Assembly: GCA_017882455.1 (NCBI GenBank) | Contig: JADGPL010000019.1 | Span: 1-59,256 of the forward strand | Direction of reading: 5' to 3' | DNA: 59,256 nucleotides | DNA from: Solirubrobacteraceae bacterium | GTDB lineage: Bacteria; Actinomycetota; Thermoleophilia; Solirubrobacterales; Solirubrobacteraceae | In this document: positions 10,562-48,509 of the stretch, piece by piece | Numbering within the stretch: the stretch's first letter is position 1 | Layout of the letters: each line of letters starts with the position of its first letter | Translations under genes and position numbers: made by a program | The notes under the pieces: generated by a model | Seen by the model: the letters and a program-made list of their open reading frames with translations, nothing else | Databases searched by the model: none | What the model was told of the DNA's origin: nothing

Positions 10562-10617
10562 TGGCCAGGCATCCGCTGTTACCGGCGGTTGGCCAGGCAT
10601 CCGCTGTTACCGGCGGT
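10562..10617. repeat. two abutting copies of a 28-bp repeat
   Basis: The unit begins TGGCCAGGCATCCGC and ends ACCGGCGGT. It occurs at 10562-10589 and again at 10590-10617 with no difference. It contains a small palindrome (CCGC/GCGG). It sits between the tRNA-Thr half and the MNT/HEPN pair. Two copies with no spacer are not a CRISPR array. Confidence 0.85.
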
Positions 10618-17254: not shown

Positions 17255-18106
17255 ATGGCGGTTATCGGCGAATCGAGCGCGGTGAGCATTGACGGGCGGC
17301 AGCTCGGACAGCATCAGGCTGCCTTGACTGTCATGCAGCGGCTGCTCTCGGCCCCTGGGATTGGTCGATTCACGTGGCTTGATCTCGCATGTGGGCGTGG
17401 GCAGATCCTCAGTGGACTGGGTAATAGTCTGTCGCGCGACGCCCGTGCGAAGATCGACTTCTTCGCCTACGACGTCAAGCAGGACTACCTACGCGAGACG
17501 AGCAGGGTTGCGTCGGCTCTGGGATTCGGCAGCGTTGCCGGTGAGGTTGGTGACCTCTCGAAGTTTGACGTCCTCCTACCGACTGAGGCGCGCTTCGACT
17601 TCATCACGCTTACGAACACGGTTCACGAGGTCTCGCCGTCACAGCTGGCTGGAGTCCTCGTGGACGCAGTGCTCCGACTCAACGATCAGGGCACCGTCTT
17701 CGTTTACGACATGGAGCGCGTGAAGCCGCCCGAGCTAGGGGCGGTGCCGTTCAGCGCGCATGATTTTCGGGCCGTCTCAGACGCGCTCATCGAGACTCTG
17801 AGTGACAACGACTATCGACCGGAGGTTTCTGGGTGGAAACATTCAACGGTAAATGGGTGGAACGTGCAGATTCAGCGGGAGTACATCTCCGGGACACAAA
17901 ATGAGATCGAGACCAGACGGACAAAGGCAACCGAAGATACGAGGGGTGCGATCTTTGGGGTGCTGGGGCAGCGCCTGGTCGACTGCCGCCGCACCCTAGA
18001 GGTACTGACGACGAATGGAGCGGAGACGGCTGAAGAGCAAGAGGACCGCGAGCATTTGCTACACGAGCTGTGGGCGATCACGCGCGCACTGGAGGCAGAC
18101 GCATGA
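17255..18106 (+). CDS. class I SAM-dependent methyltransferase, first gene of TIR-Mrr operon
   Basis: The 283-residue protein contains WLDLACGRGQIL (41-52), the glycine-rich SAM loop, followed by an acidic strand end (FFAYDV) and FDFITLTNTVHEV, the post-I region of a Rossmann methyltransferase. No NPPY/DPPY motif of an amino-methylating DNA methylase and no PC motif of a cytosine methylase is present. The substrate may therefore be a small molecule, RNA or protein. It ends in an ATGA overlap with the TIR/Mrr fusion gene. The tight coupling implies joint function. Confidence 0.7.
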   Translation: MAVIGESSAVSIDGRQLGQHQAALTVMQRLLSAPGIGRFTWLDLACGRGQILSGLGNSLSRDARAKIDFFAYDVKQDYLRETSRVASALGFGSVAGEVGDLSKFDVLLPTEARFDFITLTNTVHEVSPSQLAGVLVDAVLRLNDQGTVFVYDMERVKPPELGAVPFSAHDFRAVSDALIETLSDNDYRPEVSGWKHSTVNGWNVQIQREYISGTQNEIETRRTKATEDTRGAIFGVLGQRLVDCRRTLEVLTTNGAETAEEQEDREHLLHELWAITRALEADA

Positions 18107-18924
18107 GAGTGTTCATCGCACACGCCTACGCCGACGCTGAGGACCTAGCGGAGGAACTTCGTCGGACGTTGAACGAATCCGGTTATGAGGCATTCAAACC
18201 GGACAGTTCCTACGAGGCTGAGGCGACCACAACGGCCTCGATTTCGGCCGCAATCCGGACGGCTGATGTGGTGATCGCGTTGCTGACGTCGCCGAATCCC
18301 AATGTGTACTTCGAGCTGGGATTGGCTGCGGGCTCGAACGTGCCGATGCTTGTCGCGTCGCGCCATCCTGCAGATATGGCGTTCGATCTTGCGGCGGCCC
18401 CCTACGTCGAGCTAACCGGGAACATTGGGACCGACGCCGCAGCTATCGTCCGGCGTGTTAGGGAGATCGTTCCTGTTCGGGAGGAGTTGGCTGAGCGGCC
18501 GAACCTGACGTTGGCGGACGTCGCGCAGGATCCAGGAGCACTAGAAAGCATAAGCCTCGTCGAGTTCGAGCGACTAGTGGCTCAGGCGTTCGAAGACGTC
18601 GGCTACGAGATACGGACGGCGTCGAGTCGGCCGGATCGGGGGTTTGATCTCGTGATCGAAGGCGACCCGCCCACGATCGTAGTGGTCAAGCGTTATAGAA
18701 GACGGAATCTTGTGAGCGTCGCCAGTGTGCGTGACCTGTTTGGAGTCATGACCGCCGTGGGAGCGGGCAGAGCGATTCTCGTTTCCTCGGGCGGCTTCAC
18801 ACGCTCTGCTGAGGCTGAAGCCGCCGAGCGGCCCATCGATCTGCTGACGCTTGACGACTTGCTTCGGCTGCGGGGTCCGACACGTTCTCCAGCAGATCTA
18901 GGCACCGATCCGGGCACCCCGTGA
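18103..18924 (+). CDS. TIR-like domain fused to Mrr-type restriction endonuclease domain
   Basis: The 273-residue protein has two parts. Residues 1-125 are TIR/deoxyribosyltransferase-like: MRVFIAHAYADAEDLAEEL, then AIRTADVVIALLTS and NPNVYFELGLAAG, where E71 is placed like the catalytic Glu of TIR NADases. Residues about 148-258 are Mrr-like: SLVEFERLVAQAFEDVGYEI, DRGFDLVI (D182), VVVKRYRR (K196) and ILVSSGGFT. The residue two before the Lys, usually Gln or Glu, is Val194, so the nuclease centre may be weakened. An NAD-consuming sensor/effector joined to a DNA-binding nuclease module is unusual. It is coupled to the methyltransferase before it and a small gene after it (GTGA overlap). Confidence 0.7.
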   Translation: MRVFIAHAYADAEDLAEELRRTLNESGYEAFKPDSSYEAEATTTASISAAIRTADVVIALLTSPNPNVYFELGLAAGSNVPMLVASRHPADMAFDLAAAPYVELTGNIGTDAAAIVRRVREIVPVREELAERPNLTLADVAQDPGALESISLVEFERLVAQAFEDVGYEIRTASSRPDRGFDLVIEGDPPTIVVVKRYRRRNLVSVASVRDLFGVMTAVGAGRAILVSSGGFTRSAEAEAAERPIDLLTLDDLLRLRGPTRSPADLGTDPGTP

Positions 18925-20835: not shown

Positions 20836-21280
20836 CTAGAGTTGGAGTCCGGCGCTGGCGGGCATCATCGGTGCTCGTCGTGAGTTGACGATGGTGATGA
20901 TCTCCTCGGTGTCGATCCCTTGGAGGTAGATCGAGGTGGTGCCGAGGTTGGCGTGCCCGAGCTGGCGCTGGATCGCGTTCAGCGGCACCCCCTCACGGGC
21001 CAACTCAACGGCATGGGCGTGACGGAGCTGATGCGGCGCGAACCTCCGCCTAACCCCGGCACGCGCCGCATAGCGGCGAAGCTCGCTGCGCACCGCGGCA
21101 CTCGACCACGGCCTACCGCGTATCGGCCCATCGATGACACAGAACAACGGCCCTACGGGTAGCTCGACGCGTGCCGTGAGCCACGGGCGTAGGTGCTCCC
21201 AGCCCCAGGTGTCCATGCCGATTTCGCGGCGACGGCCTCCTCTCCAAATGCCGCGTGCCCCGACTCTGGGGCAGGACGCT
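20836..21280 (-). pseudogene. C-terminal remnant of a XerC/D-like tyrosine recombinase
   Basis: The frame encodes the last part of a catalytic domain: GGRRREIGMD, LFCVIDGPIRGRPW, HQLRHAHAVELAREGVPL and GHANLGTTSIYL, with HxxR, H and the nucleophilic Tyr. The N-terminal domain and the first catalytic Arg are absent and the upstream frame degenerates by about 21280. It is a different lineage from the two large integrases (XerD-like HQLRH rather than YALRR). It shows that the island was built in more than one insertion. Confidence 0.75.
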
Positions 21281-21932
21281 CGCTACTGCCAAAAAGCTTC
21301 TTACTGCCGCTGGCTGCGCTCTAGGCCGAGTCACGATCACCGGCCACAAGACTCCTCGCTTGGTCGTGAGCCAAGAACCACGTGCCGGAAAGAGACTGCC
21401 CAATGGGACCCGAGTGAATCTGCTATTCGAGTGACTAGGCAGCGCCCCGCGTGGCACGGTCGCGTGGTTGCCGGTAGCCATTTCTCCCGCCTCGAACGGA
21501 CTGCTTCTAGTCGTCCCTTGGGAGGTCAGCCACGCTCCAGACGAAGCGTCGGCGAGCAGGACCGAGTGGCTCGCCCGGGACCAGCGATCCGCGCTGCGCG
21601 CAGAGCCCCGCATGGCGAGCTGCGCACCTACGCGGGCGTGGATCACTTCGACAGCTACGTCGGCTTGGCGCTTCGCATCCTAGCGCCGCGGCGCTAGGGT
21701 CGCCACGAGCGCGGAGGAGGGTCGACCTACCGGCACTCAAGCCCCGCGTATCCACCGCAGCGCCGCAGATGCTGATGGCCGCGGCGCCTGCGGGGTCTGG
21801 CTGGCCCGCACGGTGGGTCCAGTCCCTGTGTGGCGCTCTGACAAGTTCTGAGGCCGGTGGCCTGTGGGGCGTCCGTCCGCGAAGTCGGCCGGTGCGTACG
21901 CCTGGTGTGCAGCTACCATCCATGCGGCGAGC
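21281..21932. other. gene-poor stretch with possible decayed remnants
   Basis: About 650 bp without a credible complete gene. Near 21600-21697 a plus-strand frame ends GELRTYAGVDHFDSYVG, which faintly resembles the end of an alpha/beta hydrolase, but nothing upstream supports it. The rest shows no structure beyond the approach to the 22-bp repeats. Confidence 0.35.
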
Positions 21933-21998
21933 TTTCGCCATATGCGCAGCGAGGTTTCGCCATCTGCGCAAAGAGCTTTGACCATATGCGCAGAACTG
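21933..21998. promoter_or_regulatory. three tandem 22-bp repeats before the DUF4143 ATPase gene
   Basis: Copies start at 21933, 21955 and 21977. The core TTTCGCCATATGCGCAG is kept in copy 1, reads CATCTGCGCAA in copy 2, and TTTGACCATATGCGCAG in copy 3. The 22-bp period is two turns of DNA, so a protein would meet all copies on one face. They end 10 bases before the GTG at 22009 and overlap the expected promoter and ribosome site region. A degenerate fourth copy may lie just upstream. Confidence 0.7.
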
Positions 21999-22008
21999 GA
22001 GGCCTGTT

Positions 22009-23247
22009 GTGACCGAGCTGGTGCCCCGCCGGACAAGAAGACTCGTGGTGGAAGCGCTCGCCGACACGCGGGTTGTGTTCGTGACGGGCGCTCGGCAGGT
22101 CGGCAAGAGCACGTTGGTCCGGGAGATCGCCGCAGGCGAGCACCCCGCGCGGGTGGTGAGCTTCGATGACGACGGGCCCCGTGAGGCCGCTCGGCTGGAC
22201 CCGGCGGGGTTCCTGGAGGGGTTTCCCGGCCCGGTTGTGATTGACGAGGTGCAGCGGGTTCCCGGGTTGCTGCTGGCGATCAAGGATCGCGTGGACCGGG
22301 ACACCCGGCCGGGTCGGTTCCTGCTCACTGGCTCGGCCAACGTGTTCGCATCTCGGCGTGTGCACGAGGCGCTCACCGGCCGTATGGAGACGATCGTGTT
22401 GTGGCCGCTCGCGCAGGCCGAGACGAGGGGCTCTGATACGAACATCGTCGATCTGCTGTTCGCCGGTCTCGCTCCCGACGTGGAGGGCGCGCCGGTCGGG
22501 CGTGCGGCGTTCGCGTCGATCATCGCGGCAGGCGGCTACCCGGAGGCCCTACGGCGGCCCGGCGGCAGGCGCCGCGATCGCTGGTTTGCCAACTACATCC
22601 AGGACACGCTGGACACGGACCTGCGGGACATCAGCGACGCCCTGAAGCTGGTGGAGCTGCCGCGGCTGCTGCGGCTGATCGCAGCGCAGGCGGCCAACGA
22701 GCTTGTCTACAGGAACCTCGCCAGAAAGCTTGACCTGACCCACGAGACGGTCAAGAGCTACGTGGAGCTCCTGGAGATCGTGTTCCTCGCCAGGAGGCTC
22801 CCCGCCTGGAGGCCGGGGATCGGGACACGCGAGGTTCGAGCCCCGAAGGGCTACATAGTCGACTCGGGCTTGCTGGCGCACCTGCTCGGCGCCGACGAGC
22901 GACGCATCGGCGAGGACGACCAGATCACGGGCAAGGTGCTGGAGAACTTCGTAGCGATGGAGCTCCTGCGCCTCGCTGACTGGGCGGACACCGACACGCG
23001 CCTGTACCACTACCGGCAGGGACGGGAAGAGATCGACCTGATCCTCGAGAGCCGAGCAGGCGACATCGCCGCGATCGAGGTCAAGGCCACCGCGACCGTG
23101 CGACCCCGAGACTACGCCGCGATCGCCAAGCTACGCGATGCGCGCGGCACCCACTTCAAGGCCGGGATCGTGGTGTACGCCGGCCAGCAGACCGTCCCGC
23201 TCGGCGACAGGATGTGGGCGGTGCCAGTCAGCGGCCTGTGGGAGTAG
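22009..23247 (+). CDS. ATP-binding protein with AAA_14 and DUF4143 domains
   Basis: The 412-residue protein starts at GTG 22009 behind GGAGG. It has Walker A TGARQVGKST (26-35), Walker B VVIDEVQ, GRFLLTGSAN (sensor region) and a middle winged-helix part. The DUF4143 C-terminus carries EEIDLILE and IAAIEVKA, which matches a PD-(D/E)xK nuclease-like core. These proteins are common in accessory DNA across bacteria and archaea, and their function is unsettled. Three 22-bp repeats directly upstream suggest tight control. Confidence 0.9.
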   Translation: MTELVPRRTRRLVVEALADTRVVFVTGARQVGKSTLVREIAAGEHPARVVSFDDDGPREAARLDPAGFLEGFPGPVVIDEVQRVPGLLLAIKDRVDRDTRPGRFLLTGSANVFASRRVHEALTGRMETIVLWPLAQAETRGSDTNIVDLLFAGLAPDVEGAPVGRAAFASIIAAGGYPEALRRPGGRRRDRWFANYIQDTLDTDLRDISDALKLVELPRLLRLIAAQAANELVYRNLARKLDLTHETVKSYVELLEIVFLARRLPAWRPGIGTREVRAPKGYIVDSGLLAHLLGADERRIGEDDQITGKVLENFVAMELLRLADWADTDTRLYHYRQGREEIDLILESRAGDIAAIEVKATATVRPRDYAAIAKLRDARGTHFKAGIVVYAGQQTVPLGDRMWAVPVSGLWE

Positions 23248-23467
23248 GGGCAGCCGGCGGGCGCTAAGCAGACCGCTGCTCTGTTGCTGACGCTCGTCGT
23301 GTCGGCGATCGACACGGTGAGCGTCGCACACGGCTGCGTCGGCGTGCTCGAGGACTCGGGGATCGTCCTCACGTCCGGGGAGCTCGACGCGTTTGGGTTC
23401 ACGCCCGGTGTCGGCGAGTCCAACGGTGGCTGGGCCGACCGGGATACCGCGAACGGCGTCACTCCGT

Positions 23468-24166: not shown

Positions 24167-24684
24167 GCACCGCCACGACGACCCTAAGCTCGACCTACTC
24201 AACCGTTGATGTGGGCAAGGTGGTCGATCAGTTCACCGCGGACTTCCACATGCTTGGCGCTGCCACCGGCCTTGCCTCCCCCCAGCGGGCAGCCGACGTT
24301 GGTCATGACATCAAGCTGATGGCGAAGCGCGGCTACATCGATCGCGTCGACATCGTGCTGCTAAGCGCTGCTGGCAAGGAAATACGCGCAGCCAAGTACG
24401 CCGTTTCGACCGACGCGGGGCTCTGGAGCGCTCAGCGCCCGGGCAACAACCTGTGGCCGCCCCAGATCGCCGGCAGCTTGAGCGTCGTCGTGTCATACAC
24501 ATCGACGTGGTATGAGCTGAGCGTCGAGGCCCGACGACGATTCCATCATGAGGAGTGTCGCCGCGCCTGGGGGCCCAGCTCGATCGACACGACGTACCCA
24601 GGGTTGGTTGGCCGCTTTGATCGTCGCTACGCGTCGAACGCCTACGGCATGGAGCGGACGCTGTACGGGGAGGCGGGTGAATGA
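24163..24684 (+). CDS. cap7: bacterial HORMA domain protein of type III CBASS
   Basis: The 173-residue protein has the bacterial HORMA layout: YSTVDVGKVVDQFTADFHML, ADVGHDIKLMAKRGYIDRVD, AAKYAVSTDAGLW, and a C-terminal safety-belt-like part ending RRYASNAYGMERTLYG. In type III CBASS, HORMA proteins sense closure peptides, bind the CD-NTase and activate it. It overlaps the CD-NTase fragment at its start and the TRIP13 gene at its end. The symbol follows the CBASS Cap nomenclature and is given by motif and position. Confidence 0.8.
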   Translation: MSTATTTLSSTYSTVDVGKVVDQFTADFHMLGAATGLASPQRAADVGHDIKLMAKRGYIDRVDIVLLSAAGKEIRAAKYAVSTDAGLWSAQRPGNNLWPPQIAGSLSVVVSYTSTWYELSVEARRRFHHEECRRAWGPSSIDTTYPGLVGRFDRRYASNAYGMERTLYGEAGE

Positions 24685-25607
24685 ACCTAAACGCTGACGA
24701 TGGACGCGCCGAGCTCTTCGAGTCCCAGATCGTCCTGCCTGACGCACACATCGCTGAGCGTCGTGGACGGCTGATCGGCTTTCAGGAGCGCTTCTCCCGC
24801 CTCGGTCGTGCGATGGCGATCCTGCTCGACGCCGATAGCCTCGCTGACTGGGCGGCACGCTTCCATGGCGCTGGCCTGCCGCTCGTGGCGGCGATGACCG
24901 ACCGCTACCCGCTGATCGTGCTGCACGGAGACGTGGGCACAGGCAAGACCGTCTTTGCCGAAGCCGCCGCAGACGAGCTCTGCCGTGCAACCCGCCGGGA
25001 TGGGATGCTGCTCAAGCTCTCGACGCGCGTGCGTGGCGTTGGGCAAGTCGGTCAGATGAGTCACCTGATCAACCAGGCGTTCGCTGCCGTGGAGAGCGAG
25101 GCCGGCCGCAAGCGAGCGGCGGTGCTACTCATCGACGAGGCCGATTCGCTAGCCGCGAGCCCTGAGCAGATCCACAGCCATCACGAGGACAAGGTCGCAG
25201 TCAACACCCTGATCCAGAAGATCGACGATGTACGGCGGCTCGGCGGCCGAGTTCTGGTGCTGCTGTGCACCAACCGCCTTGCGGCGCTGGACCCGGCGCT
25301 CCTCCGCCGCGCCGCGCTGCTGGAGCGCTTCGATCGGCCGGGCGACTTGGAGCGTGCTGCGGTGCTTGAAGCCGACACCAAAGGGCTCGGCGTCTCAACG
25401 GGAGCACTCGCCAAGACGGTCGCCCTGACAGGCCCCGAGGCCAACGAAGGGCTCGGGTTCACCTTCTCAGACCTGCGTACGCGCTTGCTGCCCGAGGCTG
25501 TTCTCCGCGCCTACCCAGATCGCCCGCTGGCCGACGACGACCTGGTTGAGACCGCGCGAGCGATGACGCCCTCCCCGTCCCTTGTGACAGAGGACATCGT
25601 GAATTGA
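24681..25607 (+). CDS. cap6: TRIP13/Pch2-like AAA+ ATPase of type III CBASS
   Basis: The 308-residue ATPase has Walker A GDVGTGKT (83-90), Walker B LLIDEADS (149-156), a sensor region with VLLCTNRLAALDPALLRRA, and the short N-terminal part typical of Pch2. In CBASS, TRIP13 opens HORMA proteins and so switches the cyclase off. Start overlaps the HORMA stop (ATGA) and the end overlaps the effector start (TTGA), so the operon is tightly coupled. Confidence 0.85.
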   Translation: MNLNADDGRAELFESQIVLPDAHIAERRGRLIGFQERFSRLGRAMAILLDADSLADWAARFHGAGLPLVAAMTDRYPLIVLHGDVGTGKTVFAEAAADELCRATRRDGMLLKLSTRVRGVGQVGQMSHLINQAFAAVESEAGRKRAAVLLIDEADSLAASPEQIHSHHEDKVAVNTLIQKIDDVRRLGGRVLVLLCTNRLAALDPALLRRAALLERFDRPGDLERAAVLEADTKGLGVSTGALAKTVALTGPEANEGLGFTFSDLRTRLLPEAVLRAYPDRPLADDDLVETARAMTPSPSLVTEDIVN

Positions 25608-26758
25608 TCCGCCGTCTGCACGTCACAGGCAGCGCCGCTCGCGAAGTTGACCCCGGCCTGCTCGGCGACGTGCACACGATCGTCGCCGAGGTCGTCCATG
25701 GGTGGGTAGCACGCGGCGGAGCATTGGTGGGTGGCCTCGGAGCCGAGCCGCTCACGGCCGCTCAGTCGGAGCTCTCGATCATCTTCGACTGGACTGTCGC
25801 CGAGGCAGCGCTCAAGGCGCTCGAATCCGGCAACGCCGCGGCGAGCACCCACGACGGCCAGCTCCTCGCTGTGCGCACATCCCAGCGGGCGCGGACGCAG
25901 ATCCCCGCGCGACGCCGAGCGATCTTCGACCGTCTGCTTGAGCTCGGTGCAATAGACCTCACCTTCCTACCCGACACGTGGCGCTCGGGCGCATTGATCA
26001 GGCGCGCCCAAGCCGAACTCGGGGACGTGCTGCTCATCATCGGCGGTGGAGCGGGTGTCGAGGACCTCGCTAACCTCTACACCGCCGAAGGACGGCCCGT
26101 GATCCCCATCGATGTCGCGCTCGGGTCCTCCAACGAAGATGCTGTTCTCGGCGGGCAGGGACTTGCTCGCCGCGCCATGAGTAACGGCGATGACTTCTTC
26201 CGCCTTGCGGACGGCAGCTCGGCGTCGGCGCGACTCGCAGCGCTCAGCATGGAGGACGCCAGGCCTTCAGCACCGGTGCTCGCCCGGCGGCTGCTCGCAG
26301 TCCTGAGCGACCTCGAGCCGCCACGGGCTTTCTGCGTACGACTGCTCAATCCCGAACATCCAAACTACCTCGAAGTCGAGCGCTTCTTCTGTGACGTGGC
26401 CCAGCCCGTAATCGAGGAGATGGGCCTATGCGTCGTAGACCTTGGCCATGACCGTCAGGAAAAAGCATGGATGAATGCCGAGATCTTCGAGCAACTCCAC
26501 AATGCCGAGCTTGCGTTTGTCGATCTCAGCGGCTCGCGACCCAACTGCCACATCGAGCTCGGCTACGCCCTGGGACGCGGGCACCGCGTGATAATCACCG
26601 CGCGTGAAGAGGAGCCGCCACCGTTTGACGCAGACAGGCTTCCTTGGCACTACTGGGACCCCAACGCTGCCCCGGCAGATGCCCAAGCAGCGCTGCGCGA
26701 GCATATACGCAAGTTTGGCGCTCTCCCACCACTCGTGCAGCCTCGCCGATTCGTTTGA
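25604..26758 (+). CDS. CBASS effector: SLOG/STALD-like domain plus TIR-like domain
   Basis: The 384-residue protein begins at TTG 25604 inside the TRIP13 stop. Residues 1-215 look like a SLOG/STALD nucleotide-binding fold: GGALVGGLG (38-46), VLLIIGGGAGVEDLANLY (142-159), then GRPVIPIDV. Residues 240-370 are TIR/deoxyribosyltransferase-like: WMNAEIFEQLHNAELAFVDLSG and NCHIELGYALGRGH with E318 in the usual catalytic place. STALD-type domains are linked to NAD-consuming effectors in the literature, so this is probably a cyclic-nucleotide-triggered NADase. The order of domains and exact ligand are inference. Confidence 0.7.
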   Translation: MIRRLHVTGSAAREVDPGLLGDVHTIVAEVVHGWVARGGALVGGLGAEPLTAAQSELSIIFDWTVAEAALKALESGNAAASTHDGQLLAVRTSQRARTQIPARRRAIFDRLLELGAIDLTFLPDTWRSGALIRRAQAELGDVLLIIGGGAGVEDLANLYTAEGRPVIPIDVALGSSNEDAVLGGQGLARRAMSNGDDFFRLADGSSASARLAALSMEDARPSAPVLARRLLAVLSDLEPPRAFCVRLLNPEHPNYLEVERFFCDVAQPVIEEMGLCVVDLGHDRQEKAWMNAEIFEQLHNAELAFVDLSGSRPNCHIELGYALGRGHRVIITAREEEPPPFDADRLPWHYWDPNAAPADAQAALREHIRKFGALPPLVQPRRFV

Positions 26759-47113: not shown

Positions 47114-48346
47114 TTATGCTCGCGCTCTTGGCCCTGAGGAGAACGGCCTCGGGTGGGCGAGGTCGGCTGGAGTGAAGGCAGGGTCATGGCCAAAGGTCCG
47201 CCGCAGCCGCGAGCGCAGCGAGGCGTAGCGCCTCACAGCATCGCTTCTACGTCCCCGCATGATGTCAATTTCCATGAGCCTGCGATGCACGTCTTCGTCG
47301 TATGGCTGGAGCGTCGCCAGACGCTCCAGCGAGCGCGCCGCGCCGTCGATGAGACGCAGCTCCATGCGAATCTCGGCGAGGCGGCTCAACCCCGCGCAGG
47401 CGAGCTCGTGGAGGCGATGGCGCTCGAGCATCGTCCACTCGGCATAGGGAAGCTCCGCCAGGAAATCCCCGCGGTAGATCGCAAGGGCGCGCTCGATCTG
47501 CGCCGCGGCCCGCTTCGGATCGCGCTCGACACAGGCCAGCCCCGCCGTCAGGTGCGCCTCGAACTCGTCGGCGTCGACCACCACGTGCTCGAGGTTGAGG
47601 CGATAGCTGCCGTAGCCCGCCGCGATGAACGCCGACTGCTCGCGCAGGCCGCGCTGGGGCTCGAGCTTGCGACGCAGGGCGTGCACGTAGTAGCGAACGC
47701 TCGCGCCGATCGCATAGTCGGCGCCGGGCCAGATGCTCTCGCCGATCTCGTCGACCGCCACCGAGCGGTGACGCGCCGCCACCAGGTACTTGAAGACCTG
47801 CCCGGTGCGCTGCTCGAGCCAGGCGCCGTCGAGCTCGCCCTCGGCGGACTCCACGACGGTCTTGCCGAGCGTGGCGATCCGCAATCTGGGCTCGGTGCCC
47901 TTCTGGCGACCGGTGCGCTCGCGCCGATCGTTGGGCAGTCCCGGACGCAGATGCACACCGATCCGCTCAGCCCCTGCGCCCGCTGTGCCGATGCGCCCCG
48001 CGGCGATCCACATCGCGCTCGGGCCCTCGGGCGTGGCGATGTCCACGCGCATCTCCGGCAGGGCGCCGTCGTGGGCCAGGGCCAGCTCGGACAGGCAGGC
48101 TGCCGCGAGCACCGTCTCGGGGCGACGGCAGCCGAACAGCGTGCAGCAGCTCAGATCGCCCTCCGTCAGGCCGCGCGCCTGGATCAGACGGGCAGCCTCG
48201 CGGTTGCGGCAGATGATCCGCCCCCGACCGTCCAGGACGAGCATCGCGTAGGGGAACTCCCTGAAGGCCTCCAGCTCCAGCGACGAGCGAACCGGCATCC
48301 GTGCGCGGGTCGACAACTGCTCCATCCCCCCAATCGTCGTTACCAT
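47114..48346 (-). CDS. PAS-containing SARP/BTAD transcriptional activator
   Basis: The 410-residue protein has a PAS-like N-terminus (FREFPYAMLVLDGRGRIICRN), a winged-helix OmpR-type DNA-binding domain around 165-255 (GQVFKYLVAARHRSVAVDEIGESIWPG, VRYYVHALRRKLEP, GYGSYRLNLEHVVVDADEFE) and a BTAD helical domain at 255-390 (YRGDFLAELPYAEWTMLERHRLHELACAGLSRLAE, LQPYDEDVHRRLMEIDIMRGR). This is the SARP arrangement, which activates target genes by binding direct repeats. The 22-bp-spaced repeats at 48444-48509 are likely its site. Confidence 0.88.
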   Translation of the reverse strand: MVTTIGGMEQLSTRARMPVRSSLELEAFREFPYAMLVLDGRGRIICRNREAARLIQARGLTEGDLSCCTLFGCRRPETVLAAACLSELALAHDGALPEMRVDIATPEGPSAMWIAAGRIGTAGAGAERIGVHLRPGLPNDRRERTGRQKGTEPRLRIATLGKTVVESAEGELDGAWLEQRTGQVFKYLVAARHRSVAVDEIGESIWPGADYAIGASVRYYVHALRRKLEPQRGLREQSAFIAAGYGSYRLNLEHVVVDADEFEAHLTAGLACVERDPKRAAAQIERALAIYRGDFLAELPYAEWTMLERHRLHELACAGLSRLAEIRMELRLIDGAARSLERLATLQPYDEDVHRRLMEIDIMRGRRSDAVRRYASLRSRLRRTFGHDPAFTPADLAHPRPFSSGPRARA

Positions 48347-48443
48347 AAAACCTCAATTACATCTCTTCCCGCAGACGGCCTCCCTCAAAGCATGCGGGCA
48401 TATGTCAAAAAGAGATGATCAGAATGTACAGTCAGATCTCCAG

Positions 48444-48509
48444 GATTCGCTCTACAACTGTCCATGATTCGCCCTGCAATTGTCCAAGGTTCGCCCGGCA
48501 GCCAGAATG
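48444..48509. promoter_or_regulatory. three 22-bp-spaced direct repeats, candidate SARP operator
   Basis: GATTCGC at 48444, GATTCGC at 48466 and GGTTCGC at 48488 begin three units exactly 22 bp apart. The first two also share ACTGTCCA/ATTGTCCA near their ends. SARP activators bind direct heptamer repeats 11 or 22 bp apart, and this block lies in the 250-bp space between the SARP gene and the divergent secreted-protein gene. Binding itself is inferred. Confidence 0.7.

Follow-up and report, generated by a model that had tools for sequence, protein, structure and literature searches.

What are three tandem repeats doing immediately upstream of a DUF4143 ATPase gene, and which protein reads them? 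The question is raised by a stretch of 59,256 nucleotides from a Solirubrobacteraceae bacterium (assembly GCA_017882455.1, contig JADGPL010000019.1, positions 1 to 59,256), referred to here as the window. The gene encodes an ATPase that matches PDC-S01, a candidate defence system. Our reading, to which we give a probability of roughly 0.7, is that the repeats form an operator array that is bound by the winged helix of the protein encoded by the same gene, and that this binding represses that gene (autorepression).

The array is composed of the units TTTCGCCATATGCGCA, TTTCGCCATCTGCGCA and TTTGACCATATGCGCA, which are linked by an exact 22-bp period at positions 21933-21992. Tandem Repeats Finder reports a period of 22, 2.9 copies and a score of 86, and carries the array 5' to position 21916 with insertions and deletions. 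At lags 22-23 no other 200-bp stretch in the window scores as high as the array does at lag 22, and 0/100 dinucleotide shuffles of the upstream sequence reached this score. The three 22-bp units that the original prediction had seen before this gene are thereby borne out, while the distance to the start codon, which had been given as 10 bases, is 15-16 bp from the last unit to the GTG at 22009. In an 87%-identical Solirubrobacteraceae relative, L014 (labels of this form denote loci), the array keeps four units, and alignment with it reveals a decayed fourth unit in the window. When 9 kb of the window was compared with L014 by blastn, a single block was found (21911-23252), consisting of the array and the gene.

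Homologues were collected from several sources. A match was present in 108 of 296 genomes of the same phylum and in 31 of 200 genomes of a different one; a Pfam-model search covered three genomes, genome contigs contributed 7 loci, and 389 plasmid records matched, from which 17 regions were read. One hundred regions were taken beside the loci from searches, and only part of the listed matches was fetched. The 210 placed genes gave 198 usable and 192 non-redundant genes, as six were dropped for being at least 95% identical and twelve loci (L018, L036, L094, L020, L119, L128, L131, L155, L161, L164, L169 and L198) for being truncated, lacking a P-loop or having too little upstream sequence (none for L018). 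L160 (no start codon) and L166 (no row) also lie outside the survey, and L130 had no open reading frame (ORF) in the in-locus control test. The tandem test took the 200 bp in front of each start, scored the best self-match at lags of 14-40 and set it against 200 dinucleotide shuffles.

Significant tandem repeats were found in 72/192 homologues (p<=0.02), with lags of 23 in 52, 22 in 11, 24 in 3, 32-33 in 5 and 36 in 1. Repeats of 22-24 bp precede 66/192 homologues as compared with 0/153 neighbouring ORFs of the same loci, and only 2/153 of these control upstreams were significant at any lag. Additional controls inside the gene or 300-500 bp upstream gave 0/125, 1/125 and 0/118 at lags 22-24 (p<=0.05). 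Even among the homologues without a significant tandem repeat the best lag was 22 or 23 in 34/120, against 6/153 controls. Inverted repeats were significant in 51/192 homologues versus 8/153 controls, and the 192 genes can be divided into 66 with a tandem repeat of 22-24 bp, 5 with one of 31-34 bp, 45 with inverted repeats only and 76 with none. The 66 tandem arrays, and the inverted repeats in 45 further genes, contradict the expectation of rare regular operators in this family, and the idea that operators control the gene is supported.

The arrays have a median of 2.7 units (maximum 4.8), and their 3' ends lie at -24 (median). Promoter-like sites overlap the element in 27/32 genes having one (permuted mean 21.7; reached by 19/2000). 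Arrays were also found in plasmid members from Bacteroides, Collinsella, Ruminococcus, Rhizobium, Tateyamaria and Sulfitobacter. The nearest protein neighbours share a 22-, 23- or 24-bp period slightly above chance (0.76 versus 0.64; 48/2000), and by parsimony the repeat type changes 61 times on the tree. Upstream arrays are a feature of the DUF4143 ATPase family, conserved in period and place.

Other arrangements occur in some members. In the two archaeal plasmid members (L215 and L224) the tandem period is 32-33 bp, close to three turns of the helix, and a subfamily of ~385-410 aa (L159, L157, L206, L222 and L129) has a 37-39-bp dyad, CCTTGCAA...TTGCAAGG, near the start codon in place of an array. 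In L027 and L211 one half-site is present in both orientations.

While period and place are conserved, the letters of the repeat are not once protein identity falls below about 50%. Repeat units of different genes have a similarity of 0.68 above 50% protein identity and of 0.51-0.54 below it, where they are scarcely more alike than baseline. Exact matches of the window pattern in the 3.31-Mb genome (51 contigs) are confined to the three places of the array, and allowing up to 2 mismatches brings the total to 11, versus 5 for the reversed pattern. The second copy in the same genome, L002 (43% identity), has a different array of its own at lag 23. The repeat of L107 is likewise confined to its array in a 4.6-Mb genome, as is that of L059 in its genome (up to 3 mismatches in both). 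Among viral contigs 5 pattern matches were found, with no relative among them, and the 3' flanks of 65 genes matched the repeat core no better than shuffled cores (9.40 versus 9.42), with a single exception, L147, which has a 13/14 core match. The letters of the array are private to each gene. The original prediction had named scatter across the genome or absence before homologues as grounds for giving it up; the exact repeat occurs only in the array, and arrays do precede homologues, 66/192 of them.

The letters nevertheless track the relatedness of the proteins, and they do so strongly only for one domain. In partial Mantel tests, each controlling for the remaining domains, r was 0.244 for the winged helix (0/1000 permutations), the helical stretch gave 0.074 (32/1000), the AAA domain 0.039 (179/1000) and the nuclease domain -0.039 (829/1000). 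A sliding analysis of co-variation peaks at residues 241-260 (0.175), at the recognition helix. The winged-helix signal persists for other motif widths and with guanine-plus-cytosine (GC) content held constant, as well as among pairs under 50% identity (r 0.12-0.14, 0/300). Statistically and across the family, tandem sites are found at the gene's own presumed promoter with letters that go with the gene's own proposed DNA-binding domain. What the data show is the arrays, a constant period and position, letters peculiar to each gene, and the statistical co-variation of these letters with the winged helix.

The same tandem test was applied to ATPase_2/DUF234 proteins, one checked member of which matches PADLOC PDC-S27. 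Like PDC-S01, these proteins combine an ATPase with a PD-(D/E)XK-type domain and have upstream tandem repeats. The set, from loci L227-L287, comprises 38 non-redundant genes, 11 redundant ones having been removed from the pool; the PF01637 set left out L251 and L253-L256, and six of 30 loci were unusable (L270, L274, L277, L278, L279 and L284). Because DUF234 gave only 1 weak match in 200 genomes in the phylum of G296, this survey is limited to one phylum. Significant tandem repeats precede 13/38 genes, with lags of 15 in 6, 16 in 4, 30 in 2 and 18 in 1, and none of these 13 arrays has a lag of 22-24. Of the 38 genes, 22 have their best lag at 15 or 16. With a period of 15-16 bp, unlike the 22-23 bp of PDC-S01, adjacent units look out from nearly opposite sides of the DNA. 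Period is thus a property of the protein family, and letters are a property of the individual protein, as self-binding predicts.

The window protein is a full-length match to PDC-S01 (PADLOC PDLC04790, 518 bits, E 3e-156, residues 1-412), and DUF4143 (140 bits) and AAA_14 (90.7 bits) are the Pfam models above their cut-offs; no NCBIfam model matches it. Its AlphaFold2 model is confident (predicted local distance difference test score 95, predicted template modelling score 0.94) and places an ATPase core, a helical stretch, a winged helix (residues 214-283) and a PD-(D/E)XK-type domain in this order, the domain names being our reading of the model and the motifs. Across 66 aligned sequences the Walker A residues G27..K33, Walker B D79 and E80, S109 and R125 are invariant, as are D343 and E357 of the nuclease domain, in which K359 and E312 are found in at least 90%. 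The strands and helices of this putative nuclease follow in the model the order expected of PD-(D/E)XK domains. Among solved structures, the closest in fold are two archaeal ATPases, 2qen (Z 15.9, root-mean-square deviation 5.0, 253 residues aligned) and 2fna (Z 14.8), followed by NLR and CED-4 (Z 13-14.5) and Apaf-1, with a match that spans about residues 1-295. A phmmer search of the single protein against PDB sequences gave no match, and its profile gave 2fna and 2qen as weak matches amid many P-loop ones. As modelled, the protein has a STAND-like switch fold, with a NOD ATPase first and a helical domain and a winged helix after it.

In STAND switches the winged helix moves when the nucleotide is exchanged, and the STAND-like fold suggests a possible route from release to activation. 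We infer binding to the array, repression and a link between release and activation. Each unit would be bound by the winged helix of a single ATPase protomer, and the spacing of 22-23 bp, about two helical turns, would place the protomers side by side on one face of the DNA. With the array on or next to the presumed promoter and 5' of the ribosome-binding site, binding would repress the gene. A trigger, perhaps phage infection, could take the protein out of a DNA-bound, ADP-like state and activate it, and this would at once free the nuclease and lift the repression. A wider version of this proposal is speculative and, taken as a whole, doubtful: PDC-S01 and PDC-S27 may both be self-addressed immune switches, in which a private array at the protein's own promoter keeps a STAND ATPase-nuclease inactive and one winged helix serves as repressor, off-switch and, if infection displaces it, trigger. 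The fast change of letters would then prevent cross-talk between paralogues in one cell and defeat any single phage decoy.

Several results weigh against autorepression by the ATPase or call for a less clean version of it. At p<=0.02, 76/192 homologues lack tandem repeats of 22-24 or 31-34 bp and lack an inverted repeat as well. A promoter scan found no sigma-70-like promoter at the window array, and thus lends no support to an overlap with the window gene's own promoter; in the survey, the overlap of the -10 box with the element (20/32) is not clearly above permutation (159/2000). The co-variation with the repeat letters is modest in size, the AAA domain also gives a weak signal when GC content is held constant (r 0.06-0.08), and there is a second rise at residues 1-20 (22009-22068 in the window; partial r 0.133). 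The leader RNA of the window folds better than its own shuffles (z -2.5), and given this folding an RNA role for the window gene alone is possible. Activation by phage is proposed by analogy, and PDC-S01 is an unvalidated defence candidate (PMC12988326). The N-terminal tail of the ATPase (residues 1-20) may add DNA contacts.

Four other explanations were weighed against autorepression. The STAND-like fold and intact PD-(D/E)XK residues make the ATPase a likely effector, and the array could be a launch pad or sensor on which inactive ATPase is parked until disturbance by a phage frees it or lets it assemble into an active nuclease, an assembly that arrays of up to 4.8 units could seed. We consider this unlikely, as the array is placed like an operator, with its 3' end near the gene's own start, and has no extra copies downstream of the 65 genes or elsewhere in the three genomes searched.

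It is quite improbable that a separately encoded regulator binds the array instead of the ATPase. There is a precedent in RptR, which is reported to repress defence genes via three direct repeats (PMC12255303), and the evidence for the ATPase as the reader is correlative. Control from outside would, however, require a matching regulator for each array. Every gene has letters of its own, which track the ATPase's own winged helix, the array travels with the ATPase gene alone in the block shared with L014, and two further genomes have the repeat at the ATPase gene only.

Translational control by the repeats in the mRNA leader draws on the folding of the window leader and on the inverted repeats found near the start in 51/192 relatives, and would still be a very improbable explanation of the arrays. 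Mismatches in the inverted-repeat stems have no excess of G-U pairs (35/178, 19.7%, near the 2/12 expected by chance), the ribosome-binding site lies outside the array, and a fixed direct-repeat period of 22-23 bp fits the helical phase of DNA and not RNA. A mobile element that carries the ATPase gene and has the repeats as its ends or target marks, or a replicon that carries the gene and has them as iterons, is also a very improbable explanation, for although the block shared with L014 is exactly the array and the gene, and there are many paralogues per genome and many plasmid copies, the 3' flank has no matching copy, the letters track the winged helix, and such genes are also held by chromosome-sized contigs (L107, for example).

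The positions of the array and of the parts of the gene are collected in Table 1.

Table 1. Features of the repeat array and the DUF4143 ATPase gene (window coordinates).
Feature	Position	Strand	Basis
Decayed fourth repeat unit, 5'-most	about 21913..21929	+	aligns with intact fourth unit of L014
Repeat unit 1, TTTCGCCATATGCGCA	21933..21948	+	read from sequence, Tandem Repeats Finder, genome pattern search
Repeat unit 2, TTTCGCCATCTGCGCA	21955..21970	+	read from sequence, Tandem Repeats Finder, genome pattern search
Repeat unit 3, TTTGACCATATGCGCA	21977..21992	+	read from sequence, Tandem Repeats Finder, genome pattern search
Ribosome-binding site GGAGG, outside array	21998..22002	+	read from sequence; conserved in L014
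AAA_14-DUF4143 ATPase gene, 412 aa, GTG start, PADLOC PDC-S01	22009..23247	+	ORF, Pfam, PADLOC
STAND-like AAA ATPase core, residues 9-160 (predicted)	22033..22488	+	conserved residues, model, fold search
Proposed repeat reader: winged helix at residues 214-283, with its recognition helix at 245-257	22648..22857	+	model, co-variation
PD-(D/E)XK-type nuclease domain, residues 297-406 (putative)	22897..23226	+	conserved residues, model

Further genes of defence type are found near the ATPase gene, namely a TIR-Mrr protein (18070-18924) and a TRIP13-like ATPase with a Cap17-type effector (24681-26758). A 126-aa piece of a tyrosine recombinase (20836-21216; profile positions 100-167 of 172) is probably the remnant of an integrated element. 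Elsewhere in the window, a second array of three 22-bp units with TTCGCYC cores (48439-48496) lies upstream of a minus-strand BTAD/Trans_reg_C regulator (47114-48346); it looks like a SARP-type operator and is possibly self-regulating. At 10562-10617 a 28-bp unit is present in a perfect tandem duplication.

Two known types of system were considered for the locus and rejected. RptR-type control does not fit, as 21913-21992 contains no TAGCTA palindrome, the repeats are 22 bp and the L014 block has no second gene. A toxin-antitoxin pair with a conserved adjacent gene was rejected because the L014 block is the array and one gene, and the neighbours of the plasmid copies differ.

PDC-S01 has been ranked as the fourth most common prokaryotic defence system, still unvalidated (PMC12988326). 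The parts of its literature covered here treat abundance, domains and phylogeny and do not mention an operator or cis-element. Within the literature searched, which most subscription papers lie outside, no description of self-addressed arrays across PDC-S01 and PDC-S27 was found, and no paper on DUF4143 with direct repeats and a promoter; a search of this kind does not prove that family-wide self-addressed arrays are new. DUF4143 is named there by a single paper (PMC4406477), PDC-S01 by three and PDC-S27 by two. If the repeats are read as proposed, the private array would provide a first testable molecular activity for PDC-S01, sequence-specific DNA binding by a named helix, and the target of a member would be predictable from its own upstream sequence. 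Nature would also have provided, in the arrays and their proteins, a collection of protein-operator pairs that may be orthogonal. Caution is due in heterologous tests that rely on a foreign promoter; these may misbehave, as the array may belong to the system.

The same arrangement of ATPase and winged helix as in the window protein is found in 2qen, 2fna, NLR, CED-4 and Apaf-1. The winged helix of NLR and Apaf-1 helps to hold ADP and has no known role in reading DNA. A further likeness is to MalT, a STAND activator that acts on direct repeats. SARP regulators such as PimR are described as monomers that cooperatively bind tandem heptamers in helical phase (PMC5930380). SARP sites resemble the arrays in being tandem and in phase, with binding boxes of 22 nt, and SARPs differ in being transcription activators without a nuclease domain that use heptamers at 11 bp. 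With SARP and RptR, tandem operators are thus already known as a kind. RptR represses a defence island via three 9-bp direct repeats that overlap the -10 box (PMC12255303). It resembles the present case in that a defence promoter is repressed via three direct repeats, and differs in its 9-bp repeats with one conserved palindrome and in their reader, a separate 9-kDa repressor. Unlike those of RptR, the arrays described here have a period of 22-23 bp and letters private to each gene, and their proposed reader is the ATPase-nuclease itself.
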